Below, piece by piece: positions 17,520 through 42,546 of a stretch of 64,000 nucleotides of DNA; position 1 is the stretch's first letter, and each line of letters begins with the position of its first letter. The stretch lies in contig OZ005689.1 of assembly GCA_963930775.1 (NCBI GenBank), positions 29,403,079-29,467,078 of the forward strand, read 5' to 3'. This DNA is from Cliona cf. orientalis (taxonomy: Eukaryota; Porifera; Demospongiae; Clionaida; Clionaidae). The translations under genes and the position numbers were made by a program. The notes below the pieces were generated by a model. That model did no database searches, was not told the DNA's origin, and saw only the letters and a program-made list of their open reading frames with translations.

Positions 17520-20500
17520 TCACACTGCGGCACATGATTTACACTTCCAGGGGACATCTTTTTTTTCAAAAACATAGTTAGGAACGTCCATGCAGTGTTT
17601 GTGGTACCAGGTTTTACATACATCGCACTCGGCCATTTTATCACCTAATTCTTCGGGCAAGCGGCAGGAGCAGTGAAGGTCCACTGACTGGGTGTGCCTG
17701 ACACCAACAGTCCTGCGCTCACCGACCGCTGGGAAGCGAGAGAGGCGACATTTCTCCAAGCACTCTGCCAAGTGCTGCCTCATAGACCTGTGATCGTACT
17801 TGATCTTGCATGGGTCATTACCACTGCAAATGTCGTATGCAAATGCTAAGGCAAGGACTCCACAATCGGAACCATTTGACTGCCTTCCAACATCCATCAT
17901 TCTCACTACAAGCTGTTTAGCAGGACTGAACACAAGGCTTGCAATCAATTTTACCGTCCCACTGGAAGCACTGGAGTACATGCTGTCGTACACATTGACC
18001 ACTCCATCGTCACATCCAACATTGGAAATAGTACACCAGTGACAGCCTCCAACAAAGATGATCTGCACAAATTCTCCTCTGAGGATTTGGAACGACAGAC
18101 TCCTGTGAACTGCCGGATCTTGCAGGCCGGCTATGTTTGGGAATTCCTGCAAGATGAGCAACTGACCGGCCCTAATGACTGTGTCTGAGAGCCAACCATC
18201 AGATGAAACAATTTCCCGTTTCTTATCTATGTGCAAGGTGTACAGTGGAGTGGACACCCAGGTGTTGCTTACAACTGCAGAACCATCGGCTGAAGACAAG
18301 GCTGTGGGATCGTCAGTCAGGTCAACAACATGCTCAACAACAGGCTTGGCTAGGCCACAGTTACACACTTTGAGATTTGCAGAATCATTTGCTACATCTC
18401 GTAGTGAGGTCCTTCCTGCAGTTCGCCAGTTGTCTACTGAAATGGATGGATCACCGCTGATAGCCGTCAACTGCCCCTTTGCATAGCCAGTAGTGAGAAC
18501 TCCCTTGTGACAACATAGTAGGCATCGATCACCAAACACTTGCACAATGCAGCAAGGAAGGTGACATTTGCCCAATTTGCTATCATGCAAATTCACGCAG
18601 TCACCCACCTTGAAGTTGGGCCTAGGCTTTTTCGCTGGGGGAGGCTTCTCACCACTTGGTTTTTCTCTCTTTCCTCGACGAGTGGACCTCGTATCGATCG
18701 GCTTGCTTGCTTTAGGAGGTTTGGATTTCACACAATCATCATCCTTGCCATTCTTGTCAGAGTCAGCAGAAGAGGCTTTGGGAAACAATGTGCACCCAAC
18801 GTAACGATTTCGTGAGTTTAAGGGGCAATCCCTCTTGTGTGCTCGTCCGAGCGCTCCGCACACGCAGATACCACTTATTACGTCATCTTCAAAACACCAA
18901 CTAGTGTCACCAGTTGGGGTAGGCACACTTTTTTCCAAAGAAATGCTTTCTGCGTCTGACAGGGTATCCTCAGAATAGGAAATGACATCATTATTGTCAG
19001 ATGCTCTGTCATCCACAGAAACATCACTTCTCTGATTCTTTACGTTCAAAGGACATTCACTATGGTTGGTACGTAGGTGAGTGGTGGACCCACACTTACA
19101 CGTCCCTCCAGTTGTACGTTTCTTCTGTCCTTTACGTTTGAGTTCATCTTCGTCTATGTCACTGTCGTCACTGCCGTAGGTATCGTGGCCATGCTTCTTT
19201 GACCACAGCTTGCGACGCTGTGCATCCACTGTTCGCTCACTTTTCAACTGTATTCGCCTCCGCTTGGAGGAATCGGTCTTTTCCTGATCTAAGTACATCA
19301 TTCTCTGTCGATTGAATGTCTCCAGAGCAGCCTGAACACCATCAAACACAGGTAGCTTCAGACGCTCAAACAGCTCAACCACCCAATGATATTGTGGCCC
19401 ACGCTTCTCATACATGTATGTCATGTTGGATTGCAGCAGAGCCAGCTCGGTTGAAACCACATAGTGTAGCCTTTCGAGGAAGATGTGCTTTGGTCTGAAG
19501 CGAATGAACACATTGTGGGAGGCCTCCAACCAGTTGGAATGCCCCCTTTTAAGAATGGGGTGAACCAGCTGTTCGGCCATTTCTGCTCTCTCATGGCATT
19601 CAATTTCGTAAGCCAGAGAGTGGAAAGGACATGTCAGTGCATGCCTTGTGTGATAGTCTGTTCCTTCGCACTTTAGATCCTCTCCATCCTTACACTCACC
19701 ACAGTTGCATACTCGAAGTTGGTGAAAATCACACCTACCAAACCCCCAATCGTGCTCGTCGCGGGTATGTCTGGCCAATCCTTTCATCCTGGTTGCAAAC
19801 TCTTCGGCAGATTCACTCATCGACAAAATTAGCGAAAAGTAGTTTCTGGCCTTTTCAATAAACGCCTTGGAGAAGCAACCACATCCCTGTTTGTGCCTTG
19901 AGCAATGACAGACCACATCGCCAACAGAGGGAAAAGTGTCTTTATACTTTCTTATTAAATCAACAGTGAAGGACTTGATTTTCTGCAGCTTTTCCAGCTG
20001 CTTCTTGTGGGCCCTACCGGCATGCCCACCACAGATCATGATCTCTGCATTGGGAAAGTGGTCTGTCACTGCCTTCGCAGAGGAGGAGTCGGCATCTTGC
20101 CACTGAATGGCAATGTTCATCCCTTCCTCCTTGGCTTTTTTGAACGTAAGGCGTGCGGCATAGCCTTCGGCACCCTTGGATGTCCCCTGGTAGAGCTCTT
20201 CTTCAATTATGTCATCTCTGCCTTTCTGACAGAGATGCTTGCGGTAAAGAAGAGCTCCATTGTAGTAGTTTCGAATGCTGAAAGTAGCATTCTTGCTGTG
20301 ATGACCACGTGTCATCCACGTGCCGTCAGCGGACGTGACGGCACGACTCCACGAACCCAGTTCATTTTGGTCCATGCGTTGCATGTCATCCTTTGCATCA
20401 CTGCACATCTTATCGACCATCTCTTTGACAATAGGGTACATTCTCTTGATGGTCGAGTCAAACATTGGCCAACTAACTCCTTCAATCCCAAGTGCATGCT

Positions 20501-22435
20501 TCAATACCTTGTAATAAGTCACATGCGTGCAACCAGCTATGATAAAAGCCACCTGCGCAGCAATACCAATTTCGGTAGCACAGCCAAGTTCGTATTTAGA
20601 TGATGTTTCAAACAATGCCCACTGACTAGCACAACCGTTACAAGCATAGGTGATAGAAAGAGCACCACCCAGCCCAAGGCTTTTCACATGAATGGGACAC
20701 AATGCACCTTTACAACCAGGTGTGGCACAACAACGTATTTGATTCACTTGCTTAATGAACTTGTTCAATTGTTTCAAGTCCATGAAGCAAATATTTGATG
20801 GAATACATGACGTATTTTCTATCCTCTCTCTAACCTTTCTTTGAGGGGTTGGAACATACAGGGAGCCATCATTACTCTCCACTGTCACGTTGAGACTGTC
20901 AGTCTCTTCATCACCCTCCACTGTCACATTGAGACTATCATTATTTGACGTGGGAGTATCCTAAATGGCAAAGAAAACTTACGGTGATGTGCATGTATAC
21001 AGACAACTTCTTTCAACGCATACGAATGAACATGTACAATGTCATATAAGCAAAATGTATCAGCCTCCCAGTCTAGTGTACACCCACCAGGCCTCCCCCA
21101 ATAGCCAGACTTAACAAAAATTAATGGTAAAGCGTCATCACTCCAGTATGTAAAGTATATCCTTTGGAAGTCTCATGCCCGCCCACTGTGTGTCTGCCTA
21201 TAATTATGCGTAACTACATCTCTCCAGTTCTTCTTATTCTACCCAGGATTCCTCATACCGTAAATCTGGAAATTTTCGTTGTAAAAATATTTTCGTAGTC
21301 AATGGCGGCTACAAAAATTAATCTTACGAAAATTAGCATGCGCTATTAACGCTAATGCGGTAAGGGGTCGTTCCTACGAAAATTTTTTTGCACGAAAATT
21401 TATCATACGAAAGTTTCTTTACACGAAAATTTTCAGATCTATGGCATTAGTGGGACGTTTTTAACATTCTTACACCACTGAGAATTTCGTGTTTTTTTCC
21501 CCTACTATCGGGTTATATTTGTGCCCAAGACATGTCCTTATAATGCACAGAAGGGGGACAGAGGGGGGACATAAGAGGAAGCCACCAGCACCCCACTGGT
21601 ATGCCGCACCATCAAAATTATGAAATCACTGCATGCCATGATGTCCTGATGTGGGAATATAAGGTTCAGTATAATTATTATTATGAGGTTGATCCAAATT
21701 AAGGGGCTGAGTTTAATATTCCATCTCGCTACTAAGATAAGTTACTAAAGGATGAAAGATTGTTCCAGCCTTGAACATTGCATTTTTTTACACATTTTGC
21801 GTTTCTTGTCTGTCGCTGGTATCAAGCATGGAATTTGTGTAACCACTGACTTGGAGGAGCTGAATCTTTATGTTGATGACTGTGATCGCTATGATCTTCA
21901 GTCCAAAAAGAAAGAGTATCACTGGACGATCTTTGTGCTGATGTTGCCTCTCATCCGATATTCTGGTACAGAATTCGATTCTTATAACAGTCATTTTCCA
22001 TACATAGCTTTGTGTATGCCTCAACCATCAGGAAAAGCCGGACATGCTCTCAGCATAATTCTATCTTACATGGTTTGCTCATTCAACCGATTATAATTCC
22101 CCCCCCCCTCAGAATCATCAGGTGATATACATGTAATAATCTGCCTATGAACATTGGCGGAAATTAAACTCGGAGATAGGACCCAACCTCGTTATTGCAA
22201 AAATACTCCCCCCCCCCCACAACAAACTCTTATAACATGCGTTTGTCACCTTACCTTGATAATACTGTCTATCACCGACCTTTCTGGTGTATCACCAGAC
22301 ACAGTATTCATACCCAGTGTAACACACACATCCTGTATAAAAACAATAATAATTAAAGTTAATCGCTCAGGTCCGAGGCTAATCTTTTCTTCAAGTACTC
22401 ACTTTTTGTGCATCAGCACTCTCAATTGACTCCAT
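17520..22435 (-). CDS. Mutator-like transposase fused to Ulp1 protease and PHD finger, three exons
   Basis: Model: exon 1 22435-22403 (MESIESADAQK), exon 2 22332-22255, exon 3 20960-17520. All junctions are GT-AG and phase 0, giving about 1183 codons with no stop. The long frame alone starts at a GTG (20927), not a true start. Residues 114-147 form a Cys-rich zinc-ribbon-like patch. SADGTWMTRG (Asp about 249), WQDADSS (about 326) and NWLEASHN (Glu about 516) fit the DDE of Mutator-like transposases. Two CxCG-H-C zinc knuckles follow (about 658-673 and 736-749). A Ulp1/C48 peptidase has His 1011, Asp 1029, Gln 1064 and Cys 1070 all present. A complete C4HC3 PHD finger (1134-1180) ends the protein. 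It probably acts in the nucleus: DNA cutting by the N-terminal part, SUMO or ubiquitin-like processing and histone reading by the C-terminal part (inference). No inverted repeats were found, so it could be an intact element or a domesticated gene. Confidence 0.85.
21258..21444. mobile_element. MITE inside intron 2 of the Mutator/Ulp1 gene
   Basis: The ends CCGTAAATCTGGAAATTTTCG and their near-complement enclose further repeats of acgaaaatttt. TA precedes the left end; the right flank has CA. It belongs to the same CCGTA-ended group as 5738-5938 and 41247-41417. Confidence 0.65.
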
Positions 22436-23429
22436 ATCACTGCAAAAGATGAATAGATACAGTATCACCATGCAAGCACTCCATTATGGTCACAATCACA
22501 CTATGGTACGTATACTCACGTTAATATGTTGAATAACAAAACTTGGATGAACTGTTGAAATTTCCAACACGTAACAGACCATACACCTGTACATGTACCT
22601 TGAGTTTCAGAAAATTGTAGCAATAATAATAATATATTATGGATACACCCACATTTGATAGTAACCCAGTATTGCTCTGCAGACCTCTAAATGACCACCC
22701 CCAAATAAGATGGATACCCTTCTCACAAAATGACTACACCTTCCATAATTATGACACTAATATAGCCCCATACACATGCTGAGCTAGTGAACAGCACCAG
22801 GAACACATTACCAGCTCACATGCACAAGGGATAAAGTAATTGGTTTTGTCCGTCTGTCTGCCTGTCTGTCTGTCACCACAAAATCGCCAGATCTGGACAT
22901 CTAGGCATGTGAGCGACTAGTAAATATGACAAATCCATACAAGTCGTCCAAAATTTGTCTTCATTATGCTTCAAATGGTTTGGCAAGGCCCACGAGCATC
23001 GCAAACACTGCGTCTTTGTTGGCGACACCTATCGACTCGACCCATCCACGGCCATGTGTATACGTCAGCTACATACATGTATGCACACTTACTGCTGCAG
23101 CTCTCATTTCTATGCAAACAGATGTGGATGCAGATGCAATGTGCGACGGGTATGTGCTCTATAAAGCTCAAGTTGTTTCGTAGTGCACTGGGTATGGGCA
23201 AAATTATGCGTGACCCCTGTCCCTCACATAGCACATGGGTGGAAAACATTGCAAATGTGTGGTAGCAAGATTATTCCTGCCTTTGACTTGAAAGGCTTCA
23301 TGCTGGTATTAGGCAATATTATCAGGCCACGTCAGCAGATCTGATTATACATGTAGATAAATTTCACTGATGCAATGGGCAAAGCAGGGGCGCCGCCACA
23401 ATATTATGCAGGAGTGAATGATGTTGCAC

Positions 23430-23720
23430 AGCTCTGAGACTAGGATTATAGGCCTTGAAGTTGCTGGTCCAAAGGAAGCTCATTGCTATTCATAATCCAG
23501 TCAGCCGTTCACTTCTGGGCTACAAGTGTGTATAGGCTCTGCGGGATTTACACAAGTAAGTGGTGCTGTACGTACAATTCCCCATAGCCTTGCCAACTAA
23601 CTAGCAAGTAGCGGAAACGTTTGCTGTGTAAAACAATAGAGCACTCGAGTTTGTAGCTCAAGGTATAGACCAATGCTAGCTAGCTTGTCTGCATGACGAA
23701 AAGACCTAGCTGCTCCGGGG
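23430..23720 (+). repeat. Diverged third copy of part of the segmental duplicate
   Basis: Collinear with 745-1100 of copy 1. Shared landmarks are cctggtccaaagga, ttgctattca, gtacaattccc, caatagagcactc and tgtctgcatga. It is much more diverged than copies 1 and 2 are from each other. Confidence 0.7.
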
Positions 23721-24170
23721 GCGTATGGCAGCGACTCCCTTGTTGAGCACATAATTTACTCAGTTGGGCAAAGCGTAAACAATGTTCATCACATTGTCAA
23801 GCGCAAACAATAGGTATTTTCAGGTACATTTTCATCAGTTCTTGCTCATACACGGGCACAATGTATGGCTAGTTATAGCTTAGTTTTAGTTTCTGCAGAG
23901 ACTTTTTTCAACACTGTGTCTACTGTACTGTCACCGGTACCCAAGATTTAGTGCTTGGAGTACCGGAAGCTCTAATATTAGCTATAGCTAATAGCCACTA
24001 ATACTGAGTGCTAGACGGCTAGCGAGGCTAGTAGTTGGGGGGGGGGGGGTTTGGTTTCGCTAATCGGTTAGTGATGAGGGGTTTTGGATTTAGGCTATGG
24101 TTGTTGACAAAGGGTTAGTATTATAGTGACAAGGTGTATAAAGGTGACAAAAAACGACATCCAGCAGCAG

Positions 24171-24240
24171 CGAGCTGGGTTAGCAGAGCGGACTAGGGCT
24201 AGGGCTGGTGGAGCGGTGGTCGTGGGTTCGAAACCCGCTT
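24171..24240 (+). ncRNA. tRNA-like pol III sequence, possible SINE head
   Basis: An A-box-like TTAGCAGAGCGGA (24180-24192) is followed by GGGTTCGAAACCC (24224-24236), a near-consensus B box with T-arm pairing. A T-rich run follows near 24246-24260. I could not fold a full cloverleaf with a clear anticodon arm and acceptor stem, so a tRNA-derived relic is likelier than a working tRNA gene. Confidence 0.35.
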
Positions 24241-24827
24241 GATCTTTAGATTTCTTTTTTTATTCCACTTTCGAACAATTTTTTACGTTTTTTGGCGGGC
24301 TAGTTTGCCGGTACTCGAAGCGCTAAATTTTCAGTACCGGTGCCGGTACAGTAGACACAGCGTTTTTTCAATTGTTGCTGTTTGAGTTAGCACTGTACAT
24401 CAATCTGTGATGGTAATCTCGCTACAATGCATGGTGCAAGTACAAGCCACATTGAGACTACTATCCCCGTAATCAGTAGTCTCGTGCCCAGCCTCTATGT
24501 TGCATGCAGAAAATAAAAGTATGGTGAAATGCGCATTGTTCCGGCAATATCTCATTGCGTCCTTTCAGAATAGTGTCCGTAAAGTTCAGACGAGGGCAAT
24601 AAGCTCAAATGTAGCTGGCGAGGATGTGGATGATCCATGCCTACCTAATGGGACAGGAAAATCTCATTTATACAGCTGCCGTTTGATCGTCTGGTTGAGA
24701 ATCAGGCACTGACACACTCGGACTCCATAATTTGCCAAGATTGTGCTTTCAAGGCGTCGGTTGGGTGTAAGGCTGCGTGAATTGTGCATACAAGCAAAAC
24801 ATCGTGATAACGCTATCACTGATAATA

Positions 24828-25129
24828 CAGTGGAACCCTGCATGACGGACACCCCTCAACGGCGGACACCTGCGATATAACAGAAAATTCTGAATGTCCG
24901 GATTGTATTTCCATAGACTTCAATACATTCAAACCCCCTTAACAGCGGACACCCCGCTATTCCGTATAACGGACACTTATTTTGGTCCCGCAGTGATGCT
25001 TTATCATAGCTGGCCTCGATTTGATTGTAGGAGGGGCATGGTCAACCACTACCCCTGAGCTAAGGACACTTCGCTATAGCGGACTAAAATTTTGGTCCTA
25101 ATGGTGTCCGCTTTAGAGGGTTTCCACTG
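24828..25129. mobile_element. TA-flanked MITE (CAGTGGAACCC ends)
   Basis: CAGTGGAACCC on the left and GGGTTTCCACTG on the right are flanked by TA at 24826-24827 and 25130-25131. Internal motifs of the type ggacacc/ggtgtcc recur in both halves. The ends resemble those of pogo/Tigger-type Tc1/mariner elements (family knowledge). No transposase is present. Confidence 0.75.
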
Positions 25130-26594
25130 TATTTGTTTGCGTGTCATAATAATATTATGTCGTGTACATCTGGAACCAAAGTTGAAAAAACATTTCACCA
25201 CACTCTTTTTCCGATCTACGTATGGGTACGAGAATATGCAATCAGGTACTTGTAACATATCAGGAGAAGGAGGAAGGATCAGATTCTGGTGTTGTGCCCA
25301 TACTGGAGTTGTACCAGTGCTTAGCTGCTATGCCTGTGTGCAAACCTCACTCGTGAGATGTAGTCTAGTAGCCTAGCAAGCCCTGGTGATGACGTGGAGC
25401 AATCTGATTGAGCTCCACTCCTGGCTGCAGCAGGTACTAGTCTCGTATACATAGGTATAACACCAGAGCCTTCCTCCTCCCCAGTCATAACCCTAGCGTT
25501 CCAAGCAAGCCCAATAAATCAGGCGACATGCTAGCCTCGTCCCCAGGCCCCTCCCAACGCGGGGACGAGGCTACACATGAGGCTAGCGACATGCATACAG
25601 TTCCATAGTCAGGAAAGGCGAGAAAACTATCAGTAAGCCATATTATTATATTATGCTCACACAAATAGAGATCATCTCACAACTATGATCGTGTCACACG
25701 CATGGATACGAGTCGAGTTACCAGTAGCGATCGCGAAAAAAGCATGGATACGTGTGCTGGATACGCCCAGTTGCTATGCACGCGCAGCGCCGCCGGATAG
25801 AAAGTCTGTGTGGCTTTGCTTTTACGACGTGCCTCATTGGTCAGAAATTTAGGGCCGTGTGCACAATTGCGGAATTGCCGGAGCTACATCAAGGTCATCT
25901 ACCGTACTGTGCTGTCTTTCAAGATTTTGTCTCTGAGAGCTGAATCTTGGAGTCTTGGTCGTGGTTGCGAGGCATATGAGTGATTTGTTTGACAGAGTCG
26001 TTCTGAATTCAGAATAGTAAGTGGCTTCCTTCTCTTTTGGCATGTTCATGGATTCTTCTCTTTCAACGGGGAGCTTAGCAAACTGGGGTCGAATCTTGCT
26101 GGCTATCAAGACAGTTCATTCAAATCAGTCAAGGTGTAGGACTGGAGTCTTAGCTACCTCTACTGACACTTTAATACTCTGCAAAATAAAGGTATTTATC
26201 AACAACAAAAAAAACCAATTTACTCATGGGTAGGGGTAGGATAATATCCTGTTGTGTTTGGGGATTATTTTCAAATATTTTATACCTATTTATTGTAGTT
26301 ACCTTTAACCAAGAATATGGATATCACACCGGTATTCCTGTTAGTATAATTATACATATTTGTTGGCTGTTTTATTATTTGTTACGGTATAGCATTTGAT
26401 CACTTCTAGTCATTGTACTATGGAAGCAGTGTTTGAGGCAGGGTGTTGCATGCAGTTGTGACAAAAATACTAATTTAGTGGCACATTTATTGGTGGTATT
26501 TATCGTGTTTGTATCTGTGGATGTTATAGTGTTTTTTGCTGCTCATTGTTGATAGTGTTTTGTTCGTTGCTGCTGGGTATGTAGCTTATCCTAA

Positions 26595-27146
26595 ATGGTT
26601 TCAGTATCATACACTGATATGCTTAAAAGATTTTTCTTAAGGCTTTACCATTTAAAGGCTCTTTTTCATTTACTCTTGATGCTAAGTGGTGATATAGAAG
26701 AGATCCCTGGCCCTAAGACCAAAACAAACCGGCATACGGCAAAAGGTAGATTCCTATCTGATTTGAATGCTAATGCAAGCTTAAATCACTCTGATCCCAA
26801 AGAATAAGCTACAAAATACGATGTAAGTGTTGAAACTGTTTGAAGGTGGCTTAGGGACTGTTTACCATTAAGATTTACAAGTCGCAATCCTTTCTTTGAC
26901 AATCCTGAATTATTACTTGAGCGTGACGAGTTGCTATGTGAAAAATACAACGTACATGTTAGATCTGTTAAGAGATGGAAGCAAGACTACCAACATTCCA
27001 GGTTTATATGTAGTGTTGATGTAGATAATGCTGATAATAAAGTGTTGGTAAAAAAGTATAGTGTTCGAGCAGCAACAATCAACGTATGGAAAAAGGAAGC
27101 GGACGCACAATGGTCAATTTTGCATGAATATTGTGAACAAATGTGA
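26595..27146 (+). pseudogene. Decayed element ORF with 2A-like motif and three HTH-like repeats
   Basis: The first frame (26595-26807) contains LLMLSGDIEEIPGP at 26673-26714, close to the 2A ribosome-skipping signature DxExNPGP but with Ile replacing Asn. After a stop at 26805-26807, the reading continues to about 27146 with three similar units, KYDVSVETV-RW, KYNVHVRSVKRW and KYSVRAATINVW, which look like tandem helix-turn-helix modules. The frame is cut by element F2-a. It may be the 5' part of the Helitron downstream or a separate transposon; the link is not proven. At least two in-frame stops show it is dead. Confidence 0.5.
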
Positions 27147-27558
27147 CCGGATTTGAGAAAAGGGGGCACTTCGCGCAAAACGCGATTTTTGTCACTTTTC
27201 AACTTACCACCATTTCAAGGCAGTGAGAGCCTGGGCTTCAGACTTGGTTTGTTAGCAGTTTGGACCTTCTACTTCACAGATCCAACGTTAGAACCCTGAG
27301 CAAGCCTCCTGTCCCGAGCGGTGAGCCGCCAAAGAGGAGCATAAAACGGCTATTTTCGAACGCGATCGACGCGGCCGCTCGCTCCGCCCATAGAGGAAGT
27401 GGGTGGGGCCCGCAATTTGCAGAGAGTGTAGTAGGATGATGAAAGAATATTCTTACCAGGTTTGAAGTTCATAGCTGCTATGGTTCCAGAGATATAAGCG
27501 TCTTAAAACCAAAATTCGGGAAATGCGTAAAGTGCCCCCTTTTCTCAAATCCGGTCAC
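27143..27558. mobile_element. F2 element, copy a
   Basis: The inverted repeats of about 35 bp start GTGACCGGATTTGAGAAAAG. The target duplication is AAAT (27139-27142 and 27559-27562). No coding capacity. It interrupts the decayed element frames before and after it. Related copies are at 30874-31288, 42547-42968 and partly 35302-35540. Confidence 0.9.
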
Positions 27559-29247
27559 AAATTGTAGTGATGGGTTTGAGAGTATGTGCGAGTCGATTTG
27601 TATTTGTTGTTAATGTGGGATAATTTTGTTTCCATGTGATGTCAAATGGGTGGACAATAGGAAGAAAACCTCTCCCTATAGAGCCTCCAAGTTTGAGAAC
27701 CTATCCAATAGCCTAACTACTGTGACAATGGATAAGGATGGGGTGCTCAAAGTGGCATGTTGTAGACATGTGGTAACCTTAACTCCAGTGAACTCCAGTG
27801 AAGAGCTTTTTGATGATTTTGAGTCATTACCAGATTGTATTAAGGATGTAGCTGGGTTTGGTGAATCCCGTAGGCTAGCAATAGGAACATTATACTGTAG
27901 CACGTTCAAACCATCCAACTATTCCTATGTGCATAGTTCAGGTCCAATTGGATATGGTGTGTCTATAGATCATTTGAGGGGCAGGGATACTTCAATTTCA
28001 AAAGCACATTGGAGACAACTGTACCCTATGACAGAGAAGCCGTTTTGAAAGCCTTTCACTGGCTAAAGAAAAACAATCCCTTATATGAACAATTTTTGGC
28101 TCAGAAACAATATATGCTTACTTTCCAACAAAAACAACCATGATTGGAGCTGGGAATCCCCTTCCTATGAAAACTGGTGATATTGAAATAGTATCCGGTA
28201 AACAGCTTTCTGCTGATCTTGGGCAATGTGAAGGAATGATCATAGAAGCCGATCCACTAGCTGGCGTTGCGAATGCTCAGGTTCAATTGGGATAAATGAC
28301 TTGACATTGTTGGATAATGCTGGTGTACAAGGACGTAAAATAGCGATGAAGATTTGAAACTCCTTAGTACGTCATACAAAGATCCCAAAATTGAGGAGAA
28401 ATTGTTTCCACATCTATATCCATTTGGTAGAGGGGGCTTTGACATGACTCTTCGCTCATGTTCAGTTAAGGTGGTAACTCGATTATGGCCAGTATGCAAA
28501 AATCAGATTGATGCATGCTGATCCTACATGGCATGAGTACAACATGAAATGTGTTTTATCAGATTTGGGTAGTGGTGAGAAAGTGCATAACAAACTAGAT
28601 CAGTATATCCCCCCAACTCTACCAGGAACAAAGAAGTATTGGGCCAAAGAATACTTGGATTTAGCTGCATTTTGTGAAAGATGTGGTGTGCCAGATTTTT
28701 AACGGGAAATGACAATCGACCAGAACTGAAGAAGTTCCTTAATGGTGTAGTTCCACATTTTCGACCTGTGGAAACCACAGCCCTTTTCATGCAACGGTTT
28801 AGAGCTTTGAAACCTCTGCTATGGGGCAATAAAAGTGTATTTGGACACATTACTGATCACTGGAGTTCCAGAATAGGAGGTCTTCACATCCATATGCTTT
28901 TGTGGGTGGATAATTATGAATCAAAGGAAGGTAAAGTGTTGGCAGTTGTTCCTAGGGAAGTTGACGATGTCAAATTAAGAGAAATGGTTTTAAAATACCA
29001 GATGCATAGCTATCGATCTGGCCATTGTTTCAAAAAAGATGCCAAGCATACATTGTGCAAGTATGGTTTTCCTTATGCCTTATTAAAAGAGGATGGTCTA
29101 GATGAGTCTGGTATTCGAGATAATTATGCCAGAATCGAAAGTGAGGATGCCAAGGTAGTATTGAAGACATGGGATGGATACATCAAGGTACAGACAGTTA
29201 CTCAGTTGGGTTTAGTGACGTATTTGGTTAAGTATGTTTCTAAAATT

Positions 29248-29743: not shown

Positions 29744-29873
29744 AATTGAGCCTACATTCGCACTAAATGTAAAACAAAATAAGACCAAAGTTGAAAAATC
29801 TGCCCAATTACAGCTGCTAGCTTTTGATCCAGACAATGCAATTATTGTATCCAATAATGTCATATCCTTATAT

Positions 29874-30527: not shown

Positions 30528-30873
30528 ATATGGGTTACAGCCTCCCATGCATGCAGTCCAATTCTGTTCGCGTTGAGCCTACAACTTCATGTATACACCT
30601 TAAAACCATTCACCGTAGTTCCTGTACTGTCACATTTGTAGATGCTTTTGGTCTGTGTGAACCCTTCATCCACTGACTTGCTAAAGGAAGTTACTGTAAA
30701 TGACATGGGCAGGATTGAATGTATTTTTTTAGACTTACAATGCTTTTTGCTACCAACAGCAGTTTCAACAATTTTTTATCGATAATGAGAGTACTATCCA
30801 GCTGTTGATCCAAAGACTTTTTCCCTACAAGTTCCATATTCCACACAATGCTGTGTAACCGCGGATACATATA

Positions 30874-31288
30874 TGACCGGATTTGAGAAAAGGGGGCACT
30901 TCGCGCATTTTCCCGAATTTTGGTTTTAAAATGATTATCTCTGGAACCATAGCAGCTATGAACTTCAAACCTGGTATGAATATTCTTTCATCATCCTACT
31001 ACACTCGTTGCAAATCGTGGGCCCCGCCCATGTACGGTATGGGCGGGGCGAGCAGCCGCGTCCATCGCGTTCGAAAATCGCCGTTTTATACTCCGCTTTG
31101 GCGGCTCACCGCTTGGGACAGGAGGCTTGCTCAGGGTTTTAACATTGGATCTGTGATGTTAAAGGCCCAAACTACTAATAAACCAAGTCTGAAGCCCAAG
31201 GCTCTCACTGCCTTAAAATGGTGATAAGTTGAAAAGTGACAAAAAATCGTGTTTTGTGCGAAGTGCCCCCTTTTCTCAAATCCGGTCA
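30874..31288. mobile_element. F2 element, copy b
   Basis: The ends TGACCGGATTTGAGAAAAGG and its complement are flanked by TATA (30870-30873 and 31289-31292). It is inverted relative to copy a. The interior matches F2-a and F2-c closely (gcggctcaccgc, gatccaacgtt or complements). Confidence 0.88.
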
Positions 31289-31319
31289 TATACAGCTTTT
31301 TTATATTTTTTTCAAGAAG

Positions 31320-32900
31320 AGGATACACTAAGCAGAAAAAAAGCAGTGCTGAAATCACCACATATTTGAGCTGGATGCATTATAGACCCATACAATGCAA
31401 GCAGGCAGCCTAAATTGCAATTTTGATCAAAGTTGGTAATGGTAATGGTAATGGTCGTCACATTTATGTGCGCGCGTAGCCCCGCCCCTCACGTAGCGCG
31501 TGGGCGGAGAACAATGCAATTTCATGGCTTCCTATACAAATATGGGAAAACTTCAAAGGGCCGTAACTAATTGTAAGGCGTGAATCAAAATTCTTTCAGG
31601 TCAAATCTCTAGTTTTGACCTATTCTGCGTGCCTATGTAAAAATTATCCCCCCAAGTGTTCCCAAACCCCACATGAATTAGATTATTTATTTAATAGTTC
31701 GTTTTTTTCTACTTAGCGTATAATTTCAAGGGGACCACACACTAAGCAGAAAAAAATGGTCCGAAAACCACCACACAGTCGAGCTGGATTCATGAAAGAG
31801 CCATACAATGCAAGCAGGCATCTAAATAGCAATATATACATACATACATACAATGATACAATGGTTGGTAAAGGGTCGTTAACGTACACCGCGCACCCGT
31901 AATTTTTATTATGGGCTTCCTATACAAACATATGGAGAACTTTAAAGTGCCATATCTCTAATTCTAAAGTGTGAATCAAAATTTCCCGCCATGAATTTTT
32001 TAGTTTCGACCCATTCTACATGCCCATGTAAAAATTATCTCCCCAAGTGCTCCCAAATCCTCTGTGAATTACATATTCTTTTTCTTTCTACTTAGTGTGT
32101 AACAAGCAAGCCTATACACTAAGCAGAAAAAAAAATTGTCCGGAAACCACCATAATTATAATCGAGCTGGATGCATAGTAGAACCATATAATGCAAGCAG
32201 GCATCCTAAACTTCAATTTTGTCAATAATTGGTAAAGGTCATCACGTTTATGTACGTGCGAGGCCCCGCCCCTCACGTAGCGCGTGGGCGGAAAACATTG
32301 CAAAATGCATGGCTTCCTATACAAACATATGGGAAAACTTCAAAGGGCCGTAACTTTAATTCTAAATTCCCCATGGTCAAATCTCTAGTTTCGACCCATT
32401 CTGCGTGCCCATGTAAAAACTATCTCCCCAAGTGCTCCCAAACCCCCTAAACATTCATTAATTATATAAATTCTTTTTTTTTTCTACTTCTACTTCTTAC
32501 TTACAAGGGGACCACACACTAAGCAGAAAAAAATGGTCCGAAAACCACCTCAGAGTCTAGCTAGATGAATAGTAGAGCCATACAATGCAAGCAGGCATCC
32601 AAATAGCCACATATTCACAATGTATGTTTGGGAAAGGGTTGTCAACGTACCCGCACGCCCGTAATTTTTTTATGGTTAAACATTGCAAATGCATGGCTTC
32701 CTATACAAACATGGGGATACTTCAAAGGGCCGTAACTTTAATTCTATGGTGTCAATATAAATTTTCTCATGTCAAATCTTGTGTTTTGACCCATTCTGTG
32801 TGCCCATATAAAAATTATCTCCCCAAGTGCTCCCAATCCCTCCAAACATTATTTACTGTAAAGAAATATTTTTTTTTCTACAAGCTAACCACACACTAAG
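31320..32900 (+). repeat. Four-unit tandem array, unit about 375-415 bp
   Basis: The marker cactaagcagaaaaaa recurs near 31329, 31742, 32119 and 32517, with a degraded form near 32890. Each unit also carries tgcaagcaggca, gcttcctatacaaa, gggccgtaac and ctccccaagtg. Units differ by substitutions and indels. No frame is conserved between units. A single related fragment lies near 62915-62955. Confidence 0.85.
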
Positions 32901-35301
32901 ATAAAAGAGATGTAACGAGCTGTACTTAAATAAACAACATGTTCAAATGTCAGGTACTTACACTACCCTAATGGCAACACAGCCATATAGATGAATCAGC
33001 TTGAATTGTACATTGCTTAAGAGCCATGTCTCCTTTGCCGACATGTGAAGGGAAAGCCCATTGTTGGGGTACCAAGGCACATACTATTATTCTCTGAGAG
33101 TACATGTACATCTGGGTACCTGCAATGTATGTGCATATGTGTGTAATACACTGATTGAGCGAGAAGACCTTGGTTAACTTGAACCCTTCGTCACATTTGT
33201 GAAAGAATTCCACAATAAAAGCTGCATGCACAATCTTTAAGTGGACAGGTACATTGTGTGTGTATTGTACTAGCCCCATACTTACCAGCTTAAGCAGTAG
33301 GAATGACAGTCATAGGCACAAATCAAAAGGGGGTTCCTACAGCAGTTAAGAGGCGGCCAGTTGGGAGTGTCCATGCCTATTGGTCTGATGACAGCGGTGT
33401 GACATCCTCATGCTCATCTGGATAAGCAAAGGATTGTGAAGCTGAAGAACATACATGTACATGTACATATACTAAGTGTAGGGGAAGTATATACATTGTG
33501 TACATGTACATACATGTACACAAGTGATGCCTTTTCATAAAAAATTAATTATGTTTACATGTTACATGCGCAATAATATTATTATTCTACGTATGTACAT
33601 GTATATGCCACATACATATACCACTCACATGTCCACTTACAATAGATCCAGCCAGATGAAGTTATAGCCAATAGAATCAATGGAACACCCCTGGGTTATG
33701 ATGCTGTTTGTCGATAAACTGGATCAGTTTAGCAGCTATAGATTGTTATACACGAGTGCATGTGAAGTGGTGGAGGAAGATGCTCCAGGTCGCCATCAAC
33801 TTTTTATAGGACGTCAGCATTGCAAGGGCAGCAATCAATGAAACATCCCATCAGGCTCTGATATCAATAGCTTATCGAGGTCCACCACCGTCTTGGAGTT
33901 ACTATAGAAGGGTTGCGGCGGAAATGGACTGACTGTTGTGTATGCAGTGATAGAACACCAGGCGATAAAGTGATGGCACACCTCTGCTGTAGTACCATTG
34001 TGTTATCTGCAGCACCAAGCCTAGCCTCTTTCCCAGACCCTTCAAGAGGAGGAGAAAGGGCCTGGTACATACTGCACACGCTGGGGTCTCCATAGTGACC
34101 GGTCGCGTTACCATAGTGATCATTCACGGGTTCTGCATGACGTACAGTTCTATGGACGATAAATGGAGAGTATATGATAGTATCCGATTGCCCCACATTT
34201 TCTGGGGTCCCCCGGTGCATGCGCATGCAATGTGTACCAGGCCCTTTCTCCTCCTTTTGAAGGGCCTGGGTACGAGGCTACATCAATTAAGCCCTCCCTC
34301 TACCAGGGTTTGAGGCCTATCATACTCAAAGGAACTATCATAGCTACTTAGCCACATTATTACTAGTCTAGCTAGCTACATCACAATAATAATTCATACC
34401 ATGCATACTTACACTGTACTGAACGAGCTGATACTTTCTAGATATTAAATTTCTCACTGTGTGACACTGCTGTCACCCCTGGCACTCGATTAGACGCTCT
34501 AGTCATCGAGCACCAATTATAATAAATACTACTTAATACTTAAAGCTTCTACTTCGTACACGCACGCACACATCGTGATTTATGATCAAACTAGCTTACC
34601 TTCCATTCGTCACAAACTAGAGGATCGCTTCAGTTGACGACCATCGGTACCGTTCTTCGTGCCCAATGTTGCTTCCAAGCCATTCCATAGGCTTTATTCT
34701 CTCCTTTCACCGCTATGAACAACGGAACATGTCTACCACGCCAACGAACTTGACCTCATTCTCCTAGGTGCCACCTCAGAGCTCGTTCATTACATTTTTC
34801 AATTTAGGTGGGCGTTACCGTACGCGAAACGTCGCGGCATACGATCGAAAATGTACTGGCGCTATGCACGTACGTACAAACAGGGGCTTTCCCCATGTCT
34901 CTGGCACAATAAACGCGGCGTTTTCTCAGATGTGAAAGTGAAATTTAAAGGTTTTATACATTTCATTTTCTGTATTTCTTCCATTCTTCACCTGCATATA
35001 AAAATTTTTGCATAATATCGTTCCATAGGCCCCAAGAATTATTTATTTATATTACATTACATTACATTACATTACTCATACGGAAATTCTTTTTTCTTAG
35101 TGTGTAACTTAGTGTATAATTATTATTTATTATCTTATTTTATTACTTACTTAGTGTACTTAGTGTATTAGTGTATAACTATAATATTCCTGCACAGTGC
35201 AATAGATGCATGCATGAAATAGCCATAGGCTATTACGTGCATGCACCTATACAAAAATAAAATTCAACTAATTAGCACAAAGTAGAGAATAAAAATAAAT
35301 G
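32901..35301. other. Gene-poor stretch
   Basis: No supported gene. It contains tgtacatgtaca-rich sequence near 33450-33650, a TA-flanked MITE (34024-34278), and AT-rich sequence with short repeats (ttacattacatt; acttagtgta) near 35050-35180. Open frames on both strands are short and overlap the MITE. Confidence 0.5.
34024..34278. mobile_element. TA-flanked MITE with long inverted ends
   Basis: Arms of about 50 bp begin GCCTCTTTCCCAGACCCTTC on the left, with their complement on the right ending gggtacgaggc. TA lies at 34022-34023 and 34279-34280. The short palindrome at about 25530-25580 (agcctcgtccccagg) may be a relative. Confidence 0.75.
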
Positions 35302-36299
35302 TGATAGGATCTGAGAAAAGGGGGTAATTTCGCGCAAAATGCTAAATTTTGACATTTTTCAAGTTGCCTTCACTCAAAGGTACCAAGAGCCATAGGCTTT
35401 ATTCTTGGTTTATAAGCACCCCAGCCCTTCTACTAAAGAAATCCAACGTTAGAAAGCCTAGCTATGTTCTTACATGAAATGGTGGAGCTCCAAAGTGAGG
35501 TATAAAACGGCCGATTTTCGACCGCGCGCAATACGGGCGATCGCCACGCCCACACCGGAAGCTGGAGGGGGTGTGGGGGCATCATCACCACCCGGAGCCT
35601 GAGGGGATGGGGGGGGTGCACCTTCACCCACAGAAGGAGGTGGGAGGACATCTTCAGGTGCCGGGGCATCTATTCCCAATTTGAGACCAAAGTATTAAAC
35701 AATAATAATAATACCTACTATTGGAGACTCAATTTACCTTCTTTGTTGCCCGGGGCCCGGTTCAAGCGTCTGGATACTGCATGCAAATAATATAAATAGT
35801 GTTTGATCCTACTTGTAACAAACACAGTGAACTGATTGGTTGAATTGCAATTCTAACCTTCATAAAAGAAACCTTGGGCTTTGTTGCTAGATCTAAAGTA
35901 GTTATAGACACTTCTACATGATTTAAAAGAACTCAAGGCTCAATAGAATCCTTGGGATTCCTTTGGGCTTTCTAATTCACATACTAATAGAAACCTCCTA
36001 AATAGTGTCTAACTGTTATTAAATTTTAGGAATGTGTCCAGCTAGCCTAACAGCAAGTGAACTAATACACTTACGTATGGATCTTATAATCCAGGGCCCT
36101 GCCACGGAGGCGGCCAGTGTTAGCCAAGGTATCTATACATACGTATACAATAGTACAATAAAAAAAATCATAGAATAGACAATGGATGAATTATTCATGC
36201 TTACTGGACTTTGATATTTTTTGACTGTTGATACTAAAAACACGCATTGCGTCATATGCGCGTTTGACAAATATGCCAGGTTTTCTCAGATCCAGTCAC
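35302..36299. mobile_element. Composite of F2 left half and F1 right end
   Basis: The left part (35302 to about 35540) follows F2, starting GTGATAGGATCTGAGAAAAG. The right part (about 36206-36299) follows an F1 end, finishing CTCAGATCCAGTCAC. Both ends carry ggatctgag variants that pair with each other. The 35570-36190 interior is unrelated and contains a GC-rich ggtgcacc/ggggg stretch. The flanks AAAT and AATT do not match exactly. It may be a recombinant element or two nested relics. Confidence 0.5.
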
Positions 36300-36672
36300 A
36301 ATTTTCATTTGTACCAACTCTGCCCGACATGCTCCATAGTAATATCAATGCACTCATGTAATTTGTTTCTGCATATAGTTAAACCGAATTCCCTTTCTCT
36401 TCATCCCAGAGACCTGTATCAAACATGTCTTATTAACCAACCATGTCATCTTTGAACAAATTATTTAAAGATGATGTGGTTGATTAATACCGCTCTATCG
36501 TCAAATGATCTGTCGAGCTAACACTTTTATGTGGACGCTTACCTATAACCGTTCTGATGGCTATGGTACCAGCAACTCCAGCATGATTCAGCAATCAGAG
36601 TGAAACTTCCAAAAACTGAAACTAGAACCATATTTTCATTGCTTTCACCACTCATATTCACTGACACTAAAT

Positions 36673-37338
36673 GTGACCGTCTATGGGAAAACCCGCCATA
36701 TGGGATTTTTTATGAAAGTTGAGTTTGATGCATATATGATAAGCTCTACTATAGAGCTAATTCGCGTTCAAGTTCTAGACCGATCATGCGCTTCGTTGTG
36801 GAGATACAGCGTTTTGTTTGCGATTGCGCCACACCCTCAATAATCGAGAAATTACGGTCCAAAGGCGTTGCTATGCACGCGTATAGCGTTTCCGCATACT
36901 ACACGTGATCCGGAAAGCAATTAAATGGACCTGGGCGGAGCCGTTCGAAATGAACGTAAAGATCGAGCAAGAATTGAATTCATTGTTGAGAATGATAGCC
37001 GATTGTTCTTAGATGTCCAAGAAGATAAAAAGGTGAGTGAACGTACAGTAGTTCGATGAATCTAGCTGTATCCAGGTAGAGAATTCTAAATAGCACCCAT
37101 AGCAAAGGGCTCCAGGTACGGCAGCTGGGCCGACTAGGTGGGTCAAAGTGAAGGCTTATTTCGCCTTCGTATAGCACGACTAGCCTCCGTAGACAACGGC
37201 AACAGTTAGAAAAAGGGTTGTTCGACATGTATATGACAAAATCTGGACTTTGACAAATATCGACCTGAGCTACTAAACATGCGCATTGCGCGAATAGCGC
37301 GCGGATCCCATATGCCGGGTTTTCCCATAGACGATCAC
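36673..37338 (+). mobile_element. F1 element, copy c
   Basis: A 666-bp copy with ends GTGACCGTCTATGGGAAAAC and complement, flanked by AAAT (36669-36672 and 37339-37342). The exon-like stretch is frameshifted in this copy after QELN. The donor is GTGAGT. Confidence 0.92.
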
Positions 37339-39959
37339 AAATAGTACTGGTTAGTGATAGCGCTTGAGCTCGGGCAAAACTTCCAGAACCATTCTAATTG
37401 CAGCGCTTAGGCGTCACCCTAATATAGGCGCCCTATGACCTGCTCGTGAATTTTTCGGTTCTAATTAGAGGTGCCTGTGGGAGGCCTATATGTGACCGGA
37501 TTTGGGAAAACCCTCCGTAAGGGATCCGCGCGCGATTCGCGAATGCGCGTTTTAGTAGCTCAGGTCGAAATTTGTCAAAGTCCAGATTTTGTCATATACA
37601 TGTCGAACAACCCTTCTAACTGTTGCCGTCATCTACGGAGGCTAGTTGATCTATACAAAGGCGAAATAAGCCTTCATTTCGACCCACCTAGTTGGCCCAG
37701 TTGCCGTACCCGGAGCTATGGGTGGTAATTAGAATTCTCTACCTAGATACAGCTAGATTCATTGAACTACTGTACATTCGCTGACCTTTTTAGCTTCTTG
37801 GGCATCTAAGAACAATCATCTGTCGTTGTCAACAACGAAATTCAACTCTTGCTAGATCTTTATGTTCATTTCGAACGGCTCCACCCAGGTCCATTTATTT
37901 GATTTCCTGGTCACGCGTAGTATGCGGAAACGCAATACGCGTGCATAGCAACGCCTTTAGACCGTTGTCGGAGTATAGTTGGACCCCCCGGATATTTGGA
38001 CCCCGGGTCCAAAGCTCCAAGGATATTTGGACCCCCAGTCCATCCGTAACGAGGCATGAATGGACCCCCCCCCCTGGATGAAATGACCCCCCTCTCCAAA
38101 CTCGCGTGCGTGCGCGCGCAATCATGTGTTTATAAATACGTTCAGCTAACCGCTGGCAGTTTGTTAGGCTGCCTGGGACCTCGTTTGGCACTTGCTGTCA
38201 TACAATGGATGAGTATGACGATGTTTATACCTATCTAGAAAGTGGTACATATCCGGAAGGGTTATCTAAAGATGGCAAGCGAAATTGGCGTCGCAAGTGT
38301 AAGGAGAACTTCAAAATCGAGAATGGGCAGCAGGAAAGGGGAGAGAAACCCATTGAATGAAGAACAGGAGCAGCAAGAACCTGCATGGAGACTGTGTATT
38401 AAGACAAAGGACGAGAAGGAAAGGATTTTGAGGTATTCCCATTTCACTGCTACTGGTATGTACACACGTGTATGACATTTTAATAGCAATTTTTAATAGT
38501 GAGGAGCTTGATTCATACTAGTATTATGTACAGGAGGACACTTTGGGCGTGATAAGACAATTGAGGTGTGCAGTAGATGGTACTGGTGTAAGAACATGAC
38601 GGCTGAAATTTTGGATTATATCAAGAGATGTGATGTGTGTCAGCGAGTGAATGACAGATTTCACAAACCCCCTGCCACCCTCCATCCAATTCCAGTGGCA
38701 CCTCAAGTGTGGAAACAGGTATAATGATACTGTGCATTTATCATAATTTATGTGATGTATTATGATATCGTATAGGTTGGAATAGACCTAGTAGGCCCTT
38801 TACCCACCACAAATAGTGGGAATAAGTACATCGTCACAATGATTGATTATTTCAGCAAGTGGCCTGAGGCAGCAGCTCTTCCTGACAAATCAGCAAAGGG
38901 AATTGCAGCATTCCTTTATCAAACTTGCTGCCGGTGAGTATGTGTGGCTACACGACTAGTAATCGTACTATATAGCAAAGTATTGTCTATATTATTTAGG
39001 CTTGGATTCACTGAGGTCATAATCAGCGACCAGGGGCGGGAATTTGTTAATAAAGTCAATGAAGAATTCATGGCACTGGCAGGTATGATGGGCAGCCATA
39101 CTTGGTTACATAACATCGGTGATTCTTTCTCATAATAATTATTGTGTAGGCACTGACCACAGAGTGACGTCTGCTTATCACCCACAAACTAATGGCCTGG
39201 TGGAGAGATTGAATCAGACAGTACAGAATGCTCTCTTGAAATTAGTAAATGAGTACCAAAACAACTGGGATGACCTTCTGGATACCACCCTCTTTGCCAT
39301 AAGAACTTCAAAATAGAAATCAACTAAGTACACACCTTTTGAGATGATGTTCAACAGGTATCTACAATGTCATATTAGTCAAGGTACGTTGGCATGTGTT
39401 AACTGTGTTGTTAATCTTTTCAAGGAAAGTGAAGCTGCTAGCAGAACTGGAAATTTCTTCAAGCCCTGATGATCAAATCTTGGAAGAGGATTTGGAGGCT
39501 CAAGTGGAAGACAGAATACAGAAAATGATAGCTTTCCACCAAAAGATGTTTACCGATGCTGAGACCAACATCAAAGATGCTCAAGCTAGATACAAGGATT
39601 ATGACAGAAAAAAGGAGTCACTGTGAGGTATATGTGTAATATCAGATTAATTTTGTTTACTTTCGTGTACAACTCCTCAATTATAACATTCGTTGTCTTG
39701 CTACAGGAATTTAGTGCTGGTACATTGGTCCTCCTCCGTAATAGCAAGCGTGATTCAAAGAAAGGTGATAAAATGCAACAGAAATGGCTTGGCCCTTATG
39801 CTGTAGTCTCCAGTATGGGAAAGGATCTCTATCAAATTAAGAATACATCTACAAACAAGGTTCTTAAGCAAGCTGTGAACTCTGTGCAACTGAAACCATA
39901 CCTCACAGCAGACTCCTCAGCTAAACAATCACCCTCACTCTCATCTGTCACTGGGTCAT

Positions 39960-40600
39960 CTTCACCTCCACTCTCGTCTTTGGGTCCACTCTCCTCATCC
40001 TCCACCACCGGTTCATCTTCAGATCCACCTGACGGTTCAGGTCCAACAGGTTCATCTTTGGGTCCACTCTCCTCCTCCTCCACCACCGGTTCATCTTTGG
40101 GTCCACTCTCCTCCTCCTCCACTGCCGGTTCATCTTCAGATCCACCCGACGGTTCAGGTCCAACAGGTTCATCTTTGGGTTCACTCTCCTCCTCCTCCAC
40201 CGCCGGTGCATCTTCGGGTCCACTCTCCTCCTCCTCCACTGCCGATTCATCTTCAGATCCACCCGACGGTTCAGGTCCAACAGGTTCATCTTTGGGTCCA
40301 CTCTCCTCCTCCTCCACCGCCGGTGCATCTTCGGGTCCACTCTCCTCCTCCTCCACTGCCGATTCATCTTCAGATCCACCCGACGGTTCAGGTCCAACAG
40401 GTTCGTCTTTGGGTCCACTCTCCTCCTCCTCCACCGCCGGTGCATCTTTGGGTCCACTCTCCTCCTCCTCCACTGCTGGTTCATCTTCAGATCCGCCCGA
40501 CGGTTCAGGTCCAACAGGTTCGTCTTTGGATCCACTCTCCTCCTCCTCCACCGCCGGTTCATCTTCAGATCCACATAGTGGTTCAGGTCCACTCTCTACT
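39960..40600 (+). repeat. Coding minisatellite in the Ginger gene
   Basis: Tandem units of about 39 bp encode GSSLGPLSSSSTA-like peptides, organised into higher-order units with SSSDPPDGSGPT. The frame is kept across all units, so it is a translated low-complexity linker between the GPY/F module and the C-terminal domains. The acidic frame on the opposite strand is an artefact. Confidence 0.9.
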
Positions 40601-41246
40601 GTCAATAACCTAATAGGTATGCACACGTAATAATAATTATTATGATTGTAAAGATGATGTTTATACTATTTGTACAGACATGGAAACACTAAAAGAGCAG
40701 CTGTTCTCACAATCTCTCTTACGATTATGGAGAACTGGTGCTCAGATATTTGCGTATACTGCCGAAGAAGATATAGACATTGAGATTTAAACTTACATGT
40801 AGACAGCATAGAATAATTTTAATTACTATAGCTGCCAGGGCATATTCAAGATCCACATGAATATGGGCTCAGTTTGGACGTTGATGTGTCTTTGTGGATG
40901 GATTCAATGGCCTATAACAAGCAACCACCTCTCCGTAAATACTGTGACTTTGTTTTTGTCACACCAGAGCTCCATAATGACTTTGATTCTTTCCGTGAGA
41001 GGGAGACAAGCCCTTACAAAAGCTTTCTTCCTGTGGTTGCACTTTTAGAGTATTGGAACATAAGGAGACCTGTTCCCTCTCCAATGATCACCAAATATGG
41101 CAAGTCGTACCTACACCTACATAATCATGAAATTGATGAATTGTGTCAGTGGATCTATGACACAAGAGAGACAGGATTAGATCCAGCAGACAACAAGATA
41201 GAGCTTGTCCACACCAGTAGGTGCAAATGTCCAATCATGCATAATA

Positions 41247-41417
41247 CCGTATAGCTGGAAAATTTGGCGGTTTGGTGGTCTATTATTACAACCGCCAAAA
41301 TTTCCTACTATGGCGATCTGTACCTAACTGCCAAATTTAAATCCGCCAATATTCTTGCAATAGCAATTTTGGGCTCAACCACCAAATTTAATTCCCGCTA
41401 ATATTTCCAGTTATGCT
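41247..41417. mobile_element. MITE in a Ginger intron
   Basis: CCGTATAGCTGGAAA on the left and tttccagttatgct on the right, next to TA dinucleotides, enclose inverted cgccaaattt repeats. It lies wholly within the intron between 41216 and 41450 and so would not disrupt the protein. Confidence 0.65.
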
Positions 41418-42336
41418 TAATTATGTCACATAATATTTTGCTATCATAGAAGATGAAGTGCCAAGAATGATGACAGATAACTCCTGGGCCAGTTCTGACC
41501 ATGGGCACGCTGTCCAGAAAAGAGATCGGTCACCGTACCCTGAATCAGATGTGCAACAGAAGAAGAGACTAGGGGACTCAAAAGTGAGTTAATTATGTTC
41601 TAGTGGTCACCCCCCCCCCTCCCCTGATAGAAATCCGAAATTCAGCCTATTTGTGCATGTATGCAGGAGAGCTCAATTGATGCCGAGCAAGTGAAGACAC
41701 CCGAACCCACAGTCTACTGGCTTCCAGAACTTCATCTCACTTTTGATGATGAAGAGATTCTAATGGGTGGCCGCTGGTTGACCAGCAGACACATAATATC
41801 TGCAGTACACTCCCTTCTGAAGCAGTACCCTGAGCAGAATGGTCTATAGGACACACTGCAACTTAGCAATAAGTATAGATGGGCGTCAAGCAGCAAAGAT
41901 TTTGTCCAAATCATTCACATTTCCCAAAATCACTGGGTGTGTGTGTCCAACCCTACTGACACCAGAGGGTGTTGTAGAGGTGTACGACAGCTTGCCTCCG
42001 ATCTGCAACAACACTCTCATAGGGCAGGTTGCCACTACCATGCAATGCAGCAGTCAAACGTTCACTGTGCGCTGGATTAATGTACACCTTCAGAGTGGGG
42101 GAGATGACTGTGCTCTATTTGCAATCGCATTTGCAGAGGCCCTGTGTGCTGGTCGGGATCCGTTCATCCTGAGCTTCGATCAGTTACAAATGAGGCAAAA
42201 TTTGAAGCTCTGTCTAGAGCGTGGTGCAGTGACGAAGTTTCCTGAATCCACCAGACAAAAAAGAGGATGTCGCTCACGAATGAGAATGTCAAGAAAGGTC
42301 TACATATATTGCACATGTCGCCTACCTTGGAATAAG

Positions 42337-42400: not shown

Positions 42401-42546
42401 CACGCCCACCGAGCTCGTTCCGTGACGACCTATACTGATAATATTGAGCACAATAGCAGGAGTCTTCCCAAACTTGGGCAAGCCAATAGTATTAGTGGAT
42501 CAAATCATGAGTTTGAACTGATCCAGCAAGAGTAGAGATCAAAAAT

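Follow-up and report, generated by a model that had tools for sequence, protein, structure and literature searches.

A Ulp1 protease and PHD finger cassette shared by unrelated transposases in the sponge Cliona cf. orientalis

Two DNA transposon genes in the genome of the sponge Cliona cf. orientalis, one of the Mutator type and one of Ginger1, end in the same pair of domains, a Ulp1 (C48) protease followed by a PHD finger. Both lie in a 64,000-nucleotide stretch (C1:29403079-29467078, where C1 is GenBank contig OZ005689.1), hereafter the window; the genome searched comprised 216.8 Mb in 149 contigs. Our results show that Ulp1+PHD, as predicted from the DNA, follows Mutator-type, Ginger1, pogo and Mutator-like element (MULE) transposase cores. 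We interpret it as a transposon-borne C-terminal cassette that passes between elements, with core and cassette in conflict in Ginger and with a function that we infer, and we give this reading a probability of about 0.7. Most likely, the cassette is an old module that has been exchanged repeatedly.

The homology of the cassettes is seen in direct alignment. A first-pass annotation of the window had pointed to collinear C-termini in the two genes and quoted short motifs from each. The motifs are present in the sequence, and the C-termini are homologous, with 32% identity over 198 amino acids and a local score of 257, against a mean of 31.6 (sd 4.7, maximum 54) in 1000 shuffles. The similarity is collinear and runs from Ulp1 into the PHD finger. 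Over the first 165 residues, pairs drawn from seven classes of cassette reach scores of 190-336; the host SENP-like protein gives 44-64, and 300 shuffles give at most 44. These values answer the concern that the two ends might be no more alike than random C48 families, and they place the predicted cassettes much nearer to each other than to the sampled host SENP-like gene. For the window-type Ginger cassette the score is 329 against pogo and 259 against Mutator; for the Ginger cassette L043 it is 336 against Mutator and 279 against the window-type Ginger cassette.

Structure prediction, as proposed in the first pass, agrees with these assignments. The model of the window Mutator module (predicted local distance difference test, pLDDT, 90.4; predicted template modelling score 0.85) matches SENP5 (E 1.6e-6), SENP1, yeast Ulp1, Den1 (NEDD8) and bacterial deubiquitinases, and its PHD part matches 3kqi, PHF2 with an H3K4me3 peptide (E 1.1e-3). 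The full-length Mutator model, with a mean pLDDT of 60.2, served for fold matches only. In profile searches, also proposed, the PHD finger of the Mutator protein passes the Pfam cut-off (24.2 bits against 24), but Peptidase_C48 is below cut-off in both window genes, narrowly in Mutator (20.6 bits against 20.7) and with 12.1 bits only on the Ginger fragment. Membership of the C48 family is seen in the fold and in the active-site His, Asp, Gln and Cys, with Pfam scores often near or below cut-off; all 46 of 46 modules retain the active-site residues H, W, D, Q and C. The Cys4-His-Cys3 ligands of the PHD finger are kept in all modules covering them, except for the last Cys (38 of 39). At the positions that we take to form the H3K4me3 cage, Trp is found in 40/40 and Met in 36/40, and the first position holds Tyr in 20, His in 16, Phe in 4 and Ala in 1 of 41.

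With the Ginger protease piece as query, the genome gave at least 150 matches (150 of 292 candidates scored), some of them two pieces of one locus. We examined 1.5 to 6 kb around selected matches and sought cores upstream on the same strand. Besides Mutator-type cores, we found Ginger1 cores in five lineages (window/L053, L027+L055, L035+L058, L043+L076 and L060/L061) and pogo cores in three (L057+L032, L056+L030 and L074+L029), the psq-type helix-turn-helix and DDE_1 transposase expected of pogo being present in L057+L032, L056 and L074. A ZSWIM-type MULE core precedes the cassette in L072+L013 (PF21056, E 3.5e-44); a second MULE-like core (L075+L049; PF10551, E 5.2e-5) and an uncertain core (L073+L008; PF21787, E 0.012) score below cut-off. 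Proteins predicted independently give partial agreement: P0032 combines HTH_psq with PHD and P0036 MULE with PHD; SWIM, C48 and PHD all exceed their cut-offs in P0031 and P0037, and in P0035 SWIM is over and C48 and PHD are under. P0039, from Magallana gigas, has a ZSWIM-type core, and P0034 looks similar to it by eye, so the ZSWIM form of the cassette protein probably extends beyond sponges. The cassette occupies its own frame, apart from the core, in 9 of the 11 non-Mutator lineages in which both parts were read.

In one pogo family (L057/L032) the limits of the element could be read. Two copies on different contigs are 97.7% identical up to a sharp edge, and their flanks are unrelated. The 22-base pogo end occurs seven times in the genome, in exact inverted pairs around three elements, and the reversed control pattern occurs 0 times. 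The cassettes on C2, C10 and C14 sit within these inverted ends (Table 1), with TA at all six ends of the three complete copies; a fourth copy, on C1, has one end with one mismatch. In this family, the one analysed for them, inverted repeats together with TA are as expected of pogo.

Other arrangements were also observed. In two pogo lineages the transposase is separated from the Ulp1-PHD exon by a RING exon, at L056:3743-3955 (Pfam) and L074:491-742 (by similarity to L056). A HIRAN domain accompanies a similar Ulp1, with no PHD finger, at L065:3607-4641 (Pfam HIRAN) and, by similarity to L065, at L067, L068, L017 and L019. The Ulp1+PHD cassettes of L059, L062 and L063 are downstream of a short frame resembling a homeodomain, a name that is our assumption and has no Pfam match in L063 or L059.

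Two lines of evidence support that cassettes and cores have separate histories. First, cassette trees disagree with the transposase classes. Tree 1 comprised 46 modules and two host rows; near copies and broken modules had been removed, as had 17 of the 29 Mutator proteins. Tree 2 was tree 1 minus seven Mutator rows, plus six of eight further proteins (P0038 and P0039 were left out). The host rows are exon joins from two neighbouring, near-identical SENP-like genes, and one of them, SENP_B, fills half the columns. The naming of the core groups preceded tree 1, and the subgroup and P0033 tests were picked after the trees were seen. In tree 1, which followed the suggestion of the first pass to include host SENP-like rows, the cassettes split from the two host rows with support of 100/100. 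Mutator cassettes form one clade in this tree (100/94), and pogo cassettes form one in both (100/99 in tree 1, 95/73 in tree 2). The window Ginger group joins the pogo cassettes (99/94 in tree 1; weaker in tree 2, with 88/92 for the matching split), and the Ginger cassettes L043, L060 and L061 join the MULE-linked L049 (98/100, tree 1). A single clade of all Ginger cassettes is rejected by the approximately unbiased (AU) test in tree 1 (p=7.7e-6) and, with more rows, in tree 2 (p=0.0024); a single clade of the MULE-linked cassettes is also rejected (p=0.00025).

Secondly, the integrases group differently. The integrases of five Ginger lineages fall together in a single clade opposite six from Gypsy (100/99); among them, the window, L027 and L035 make up one side of the tree (99/98). 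The clearest single exchange is P0033, which joins the integrase end of one Ginger lineage to the cassette of the other: by its integrase it falls on the side of L043/L061 (99/98; with the window and L027, p=0.004), and by its cassette on the window side (97/96; with the L043 group, p=0.0004). Within the cassette, Ulp1 and PHD distances are correlated, as expected if both domains travel together (Mantel test on 26 rows, left from 40 eligible ones after thinning at 30% difference: r=0.67, 0/5000 permutations; 0.33 and 2/5000 without the Mutator rows).

The first-pass annotation had suggested a module captured or swapped across superfamilies. Movement of one homologous family between transposase types is supported, but a direct swap between the two window elements is unlikely because the window Ginger cassette is closer to pogo than to Mutator cassettes, and a clade of Mutator plus window-Ginger cassettes has an AU p of 0.022.

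The reading of repeated exchange should be taken with some caution, since several points weigh against it. The tests do not reject a placement of L035 in the window Ginger group (p=0.092) or a clade of L043, L060 and L061 without L049 (p=0.42), so the nesting of L049 is tentative. Several rows are long-branched in both trees, host SENP is represented there by one subfamily, and P0033 carries the C-terminal part of the integrase only. Some core labels are indirect: L024 is called Ginger solely on its cassette, L026 on a Ginger N-terminus of 40 residues, and L036 is assigned by near identity to L030. Most fusions are neighbouring frames on one strand, with ends shown for the pogo family alone, and the splicing of core to cassette is deduced from DNA frames; the cassettes of L027 and L061 share a frame with the integrase end. 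Finally, the fold matches to Den1 and to bacterial deubiquitinases mean that the substrate is not fixed as SUMO.

An unlikely, though still serious, alternative is that transposons repeatedly captured the cassette from host (or lost host) Ulp1-PHD or HIRAN-Ulp1 genes, with no transfer from transposon to transposon. In tree 1 the HIRAN-Ulp1 genes, possibly of the host, form a group (98/92) placed amid the transposon cassettes, and the cassette of the uncertain core L008 adjoins them (83/89); literature cited in the accessible text of PMC2836005 describes capture of host Ulp1 by plant Mutator elements. However, the P0033 conflict falls within one superfamily, and the 22 C48 matches in the genome led, on our own reading, to SENP-like host genes at three loci only (L001/L004, L002/L006 and L003). 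Moreover, the window Ginger element and the MULE-linked L049 share an upstream domain (46% identity) and a short stretch before the cassette, a common block that is expected under transposon-to-transposon transfer. As to a viral origin, a scan of viral contigs with two peptide patterns gave 78 pattern matches, of which 0 were confirmed; a viral fold library returned matches to Q6R2R7 (E 2.4e-10) and to Feldmannia virus proteins, which leave some probability for a viral link.

We consider it quite improbable that each superfamily acquired the cassette once, long ago, and then passed it on vertically, the conflicts being artefacts of long branches or of core labels. The single Mutator and pogo clades agree with vertical descent, as do the flagged long rows and the indirect labels, but in each of the two trees a single clade of Ginger cassettes fails the AU test, both lineages have starred support, and so does the placement of P0033 for integrase and for cassette. 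Convergence, or ordinary similarity of unrelated C48 proteases, is refuted by the alignment scores and by the collinearity from Ulp1 to PHD, and has next to no chance of being correct.

Previous work had already joined these domains to two of the superfamilies. Ulp1 had been described in the first pass as known separately in plant Mutator-like elements and in some Ginger elements; that Ginger1 and Mutator transposases share Ulp1+PHD was reported by Bao, Kapitonov and Jurka in 2010 (PMC2836005). In the accessible parts of that paper, Ulp1+PHD is aligned across Ginger1 and Mutator (legend of Fig. 1e), Ginger1-9_HM has both domains, and CCGG/CCGT sites are given, all as here; the elements are from Hydra and lancelet, not sponge, and those parts contain neither pogo nor a tree test of core against cassette. 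C48 peptidases of Cryptons (PMC3212892) likewise place a Ulp1-type peptidase in two transposon groups, for which the authors suggest domain shuffling as a possible cause, but the elements are oomycete tyrosine-recombinase elements, the peptidase is partly a separate protein, and PHD is absent from the text available. Utopia/NeSL elements (PMC4640811) also carry a Ulp1-like cysteine protease; they differ in being retrotransposons with the protease at the N-terminus, again with no PHD in the available text. Rehavkus (PMC6446971), from arthropods and annelids, has a PHD finger on a MULE-like transposase, and its available text has no Ulp1. We found neither pogo with Ulp1+PHD nor a tree test of exchange in the open-licence literature, covered mainly as titles and abstract openings, with Repbase reports outside the search. 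Our results add to the 2010 paper the presence of the cassette on pogo transposases, inside exact inverted ends, and on MULE transposases, and the conflict between core and cassette trees.

Because the cassette mostly occupies a separate open frame downstream of the core, we infer that it may pass from element to element as a terminal exon, which another transposase gene could take up by splicing or recombination. The PHD finger could then dock the transposase on chromatin of the H3K4me3 type. The protease might strip SUMO, or a modifier related to it, off the transposase itself or off local proteins of silencing or repair, and so help transposition. An action of Ulp1 in transposition, for example on repair factors, is proposed in the accessible text of PMC2836005; action against SUMO-dependent silencing is a suggestion of the present analysis. 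The putative roles in targeting, SUMO processing and chromatin reading rest on conserved residues and predicted folds. A wider hypothesis holds that animal DNA transposons have this terminal-exon module in common, that elements of at least the Ginger1, pogo, MULE and Mutator types have passed it on, and that a transposase acquiring it would both reach active chromatin and be shielded from SUMO-dependent silencing; it is tentative and in our view rather doubtful.

The Mutator-type gene of the window had been annotated from 17520 to 22435; its open frame stands (Table 1), but the upstream exon to 22435 was not confirmed. Its first 700 residues are matched across at least 200 positions by 28 of 29 homologues. 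PF20700 Mutator was found in 1 of 14 homologues (E 3e-13), the window protein itself being without a match. ISCth4, the core match in Table 1, is presumably a Mutator relative. Halichondria panicea is the source of the two among the 29 homologues that carry a species name, and of P0032. Between core and Ulp1 the model has a small all-beta domain (about residues 785-835) with weak KOW/PWWP-type fold matches (E ~0.4). A copy of the region is 99.2% identical across 6.1 kb, and for that reason the family probably moved recently, with segmental duplication as the alternative. Similarity between the copies spans at least window 11759 to 21353. Comparison of copies did not find element ends (terminal repeats, ~9 bp target duplication), and the right edge lies inside a repeat with 363 copies; upstream of the gene, 21330-21353 has 363 genome matches at up to 2 mismatches and is probably a miniature inverted-repeat transposable element. 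For the window/L047 pair the ratio of nonsynonymous to synonymous divergence (dN/dS) is 0.15 in the core end, 0.25 in the linker, 0.18 in Ulp1 and 0.50 in PHD (60 codons); six other Mutator pairs and L030/L029 had dS above 1 or not computable, and the pogo pair L032/L038 gave 0.46, resting on very few changes. These values agree with purifying selection on Ulp1 and are thin for PHD.

The Ginger1 element of the window carries CCGT on both sides, one of the two target sites, CCGG and CCGT, listed for Ginger1 (PMC2836005), and CCGG flanks its copy L053 (on C9) by eye. The integrase is Gypsy-like, with WLGPY as its GPY/F motif. Inverted ends, compared with a terminal repeat length of ~40-270 bp for Ginger1, show 73.5% identity over 136 columns between the window left and L053 right ends, 90% over 30 bases within L053 and 77% over 39 within the window. 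As the first pass supposed, both Ulp1 and PHD begin in this gene, but the window copy is broken by an in-frame stop and a change of frame into pieces 41694-41846, 41850-41963 and 41962-42339, and its PHD finger is cut off after the first two cysteines. Similarity to L053 stops at 42336 and picks up again at 43877; L053 has an open frame through the cassette and all eight PHD ligands. The ~110-residue domain without Pfam match that precedes the cassette is found also at L049:530-943, beside a MULE-like core, and has 15 genome matches. To the left, ending at the element border, is a ~1.1 kb fold-back (36854-37965) with arms 82-98% complementary. Elsewhere in the window, 48525-50741 holds a frame of 738 codons for a hAT-like transposase, in which DUF4371 and a hAT dimerisation domain are recognised.

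Table 1. Coordinates of the window features and of the complete pogo elements (window positions unless a contig is given).
Feature	Position	Strand	Basis or remark
Mutator-type transposase gene	17520..20960	-	one open frame, 1146 codons; C-terminal Ulp1 + PHD
Transposase core of Mutator gene, ~residues 60-600	19161..20783	-	conserved alignment columns; match to ISCth4 transposase by a weak model of the whole protein, E 1.9e-4
Ulp1 (C48) domain of Mutator gene, ~residues 917-1085	17706..18212	-	Pfam C48 E 4.3e-4; model match SENP5
PHD finger of Mutator gene, residues 1097-1143	17532..17672	-	Pfam PHD; PHF2 PHD among solved structures, E 8.1e-6
Ginger1 element, inserted or replaced stretch within	37966..44411	+	CCGT both ends; ends common to copy L053
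Target site duplication CCGT, left	37962..37965	.	direct reading
Target site duplication CCGT, right	44412..44415	.	direct reading
Ginger integrase pieces (H2C2-like finger, DDE region, GPY region), split by introns/frame changes	38205..39907	+	SH3_Tf2-1 20.4 bits, below cut-off; integrase clade 100/99
Domain without Pfam match, between integrase and cassette	40850..41233	+	also beside MULE-linked cassette L049
Ginger Ulp1 domain + PHD start, interrupted	41694..42339	+	stop 41847-41849; frame change near 41962
Ginger PHD remnant, first two cysteines	42301..42339	+	rest of PHD cut off
Stretch not in copy L053	42337..43876	.	~100 bases of L053 (PHD second half) missing from window
Complete pogo elements with cassette	C2:8093752-8102345, C10:1738503-1747352, C14:2581884-2589988		exact inverted 22-base ends

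In conclusion, an accessory unit and a catalytic core with separate histories in one genome suggest that DNA transposons evolve partly by exchange of parts. Accessory domains are usually assigned to a transposon superfamily, and the cassette described here departs from that pattern. A protease-PHD unit on unrelated transposases, some of them near-identical recent copies, is a test system for modifier removal and histone reading in transposition.

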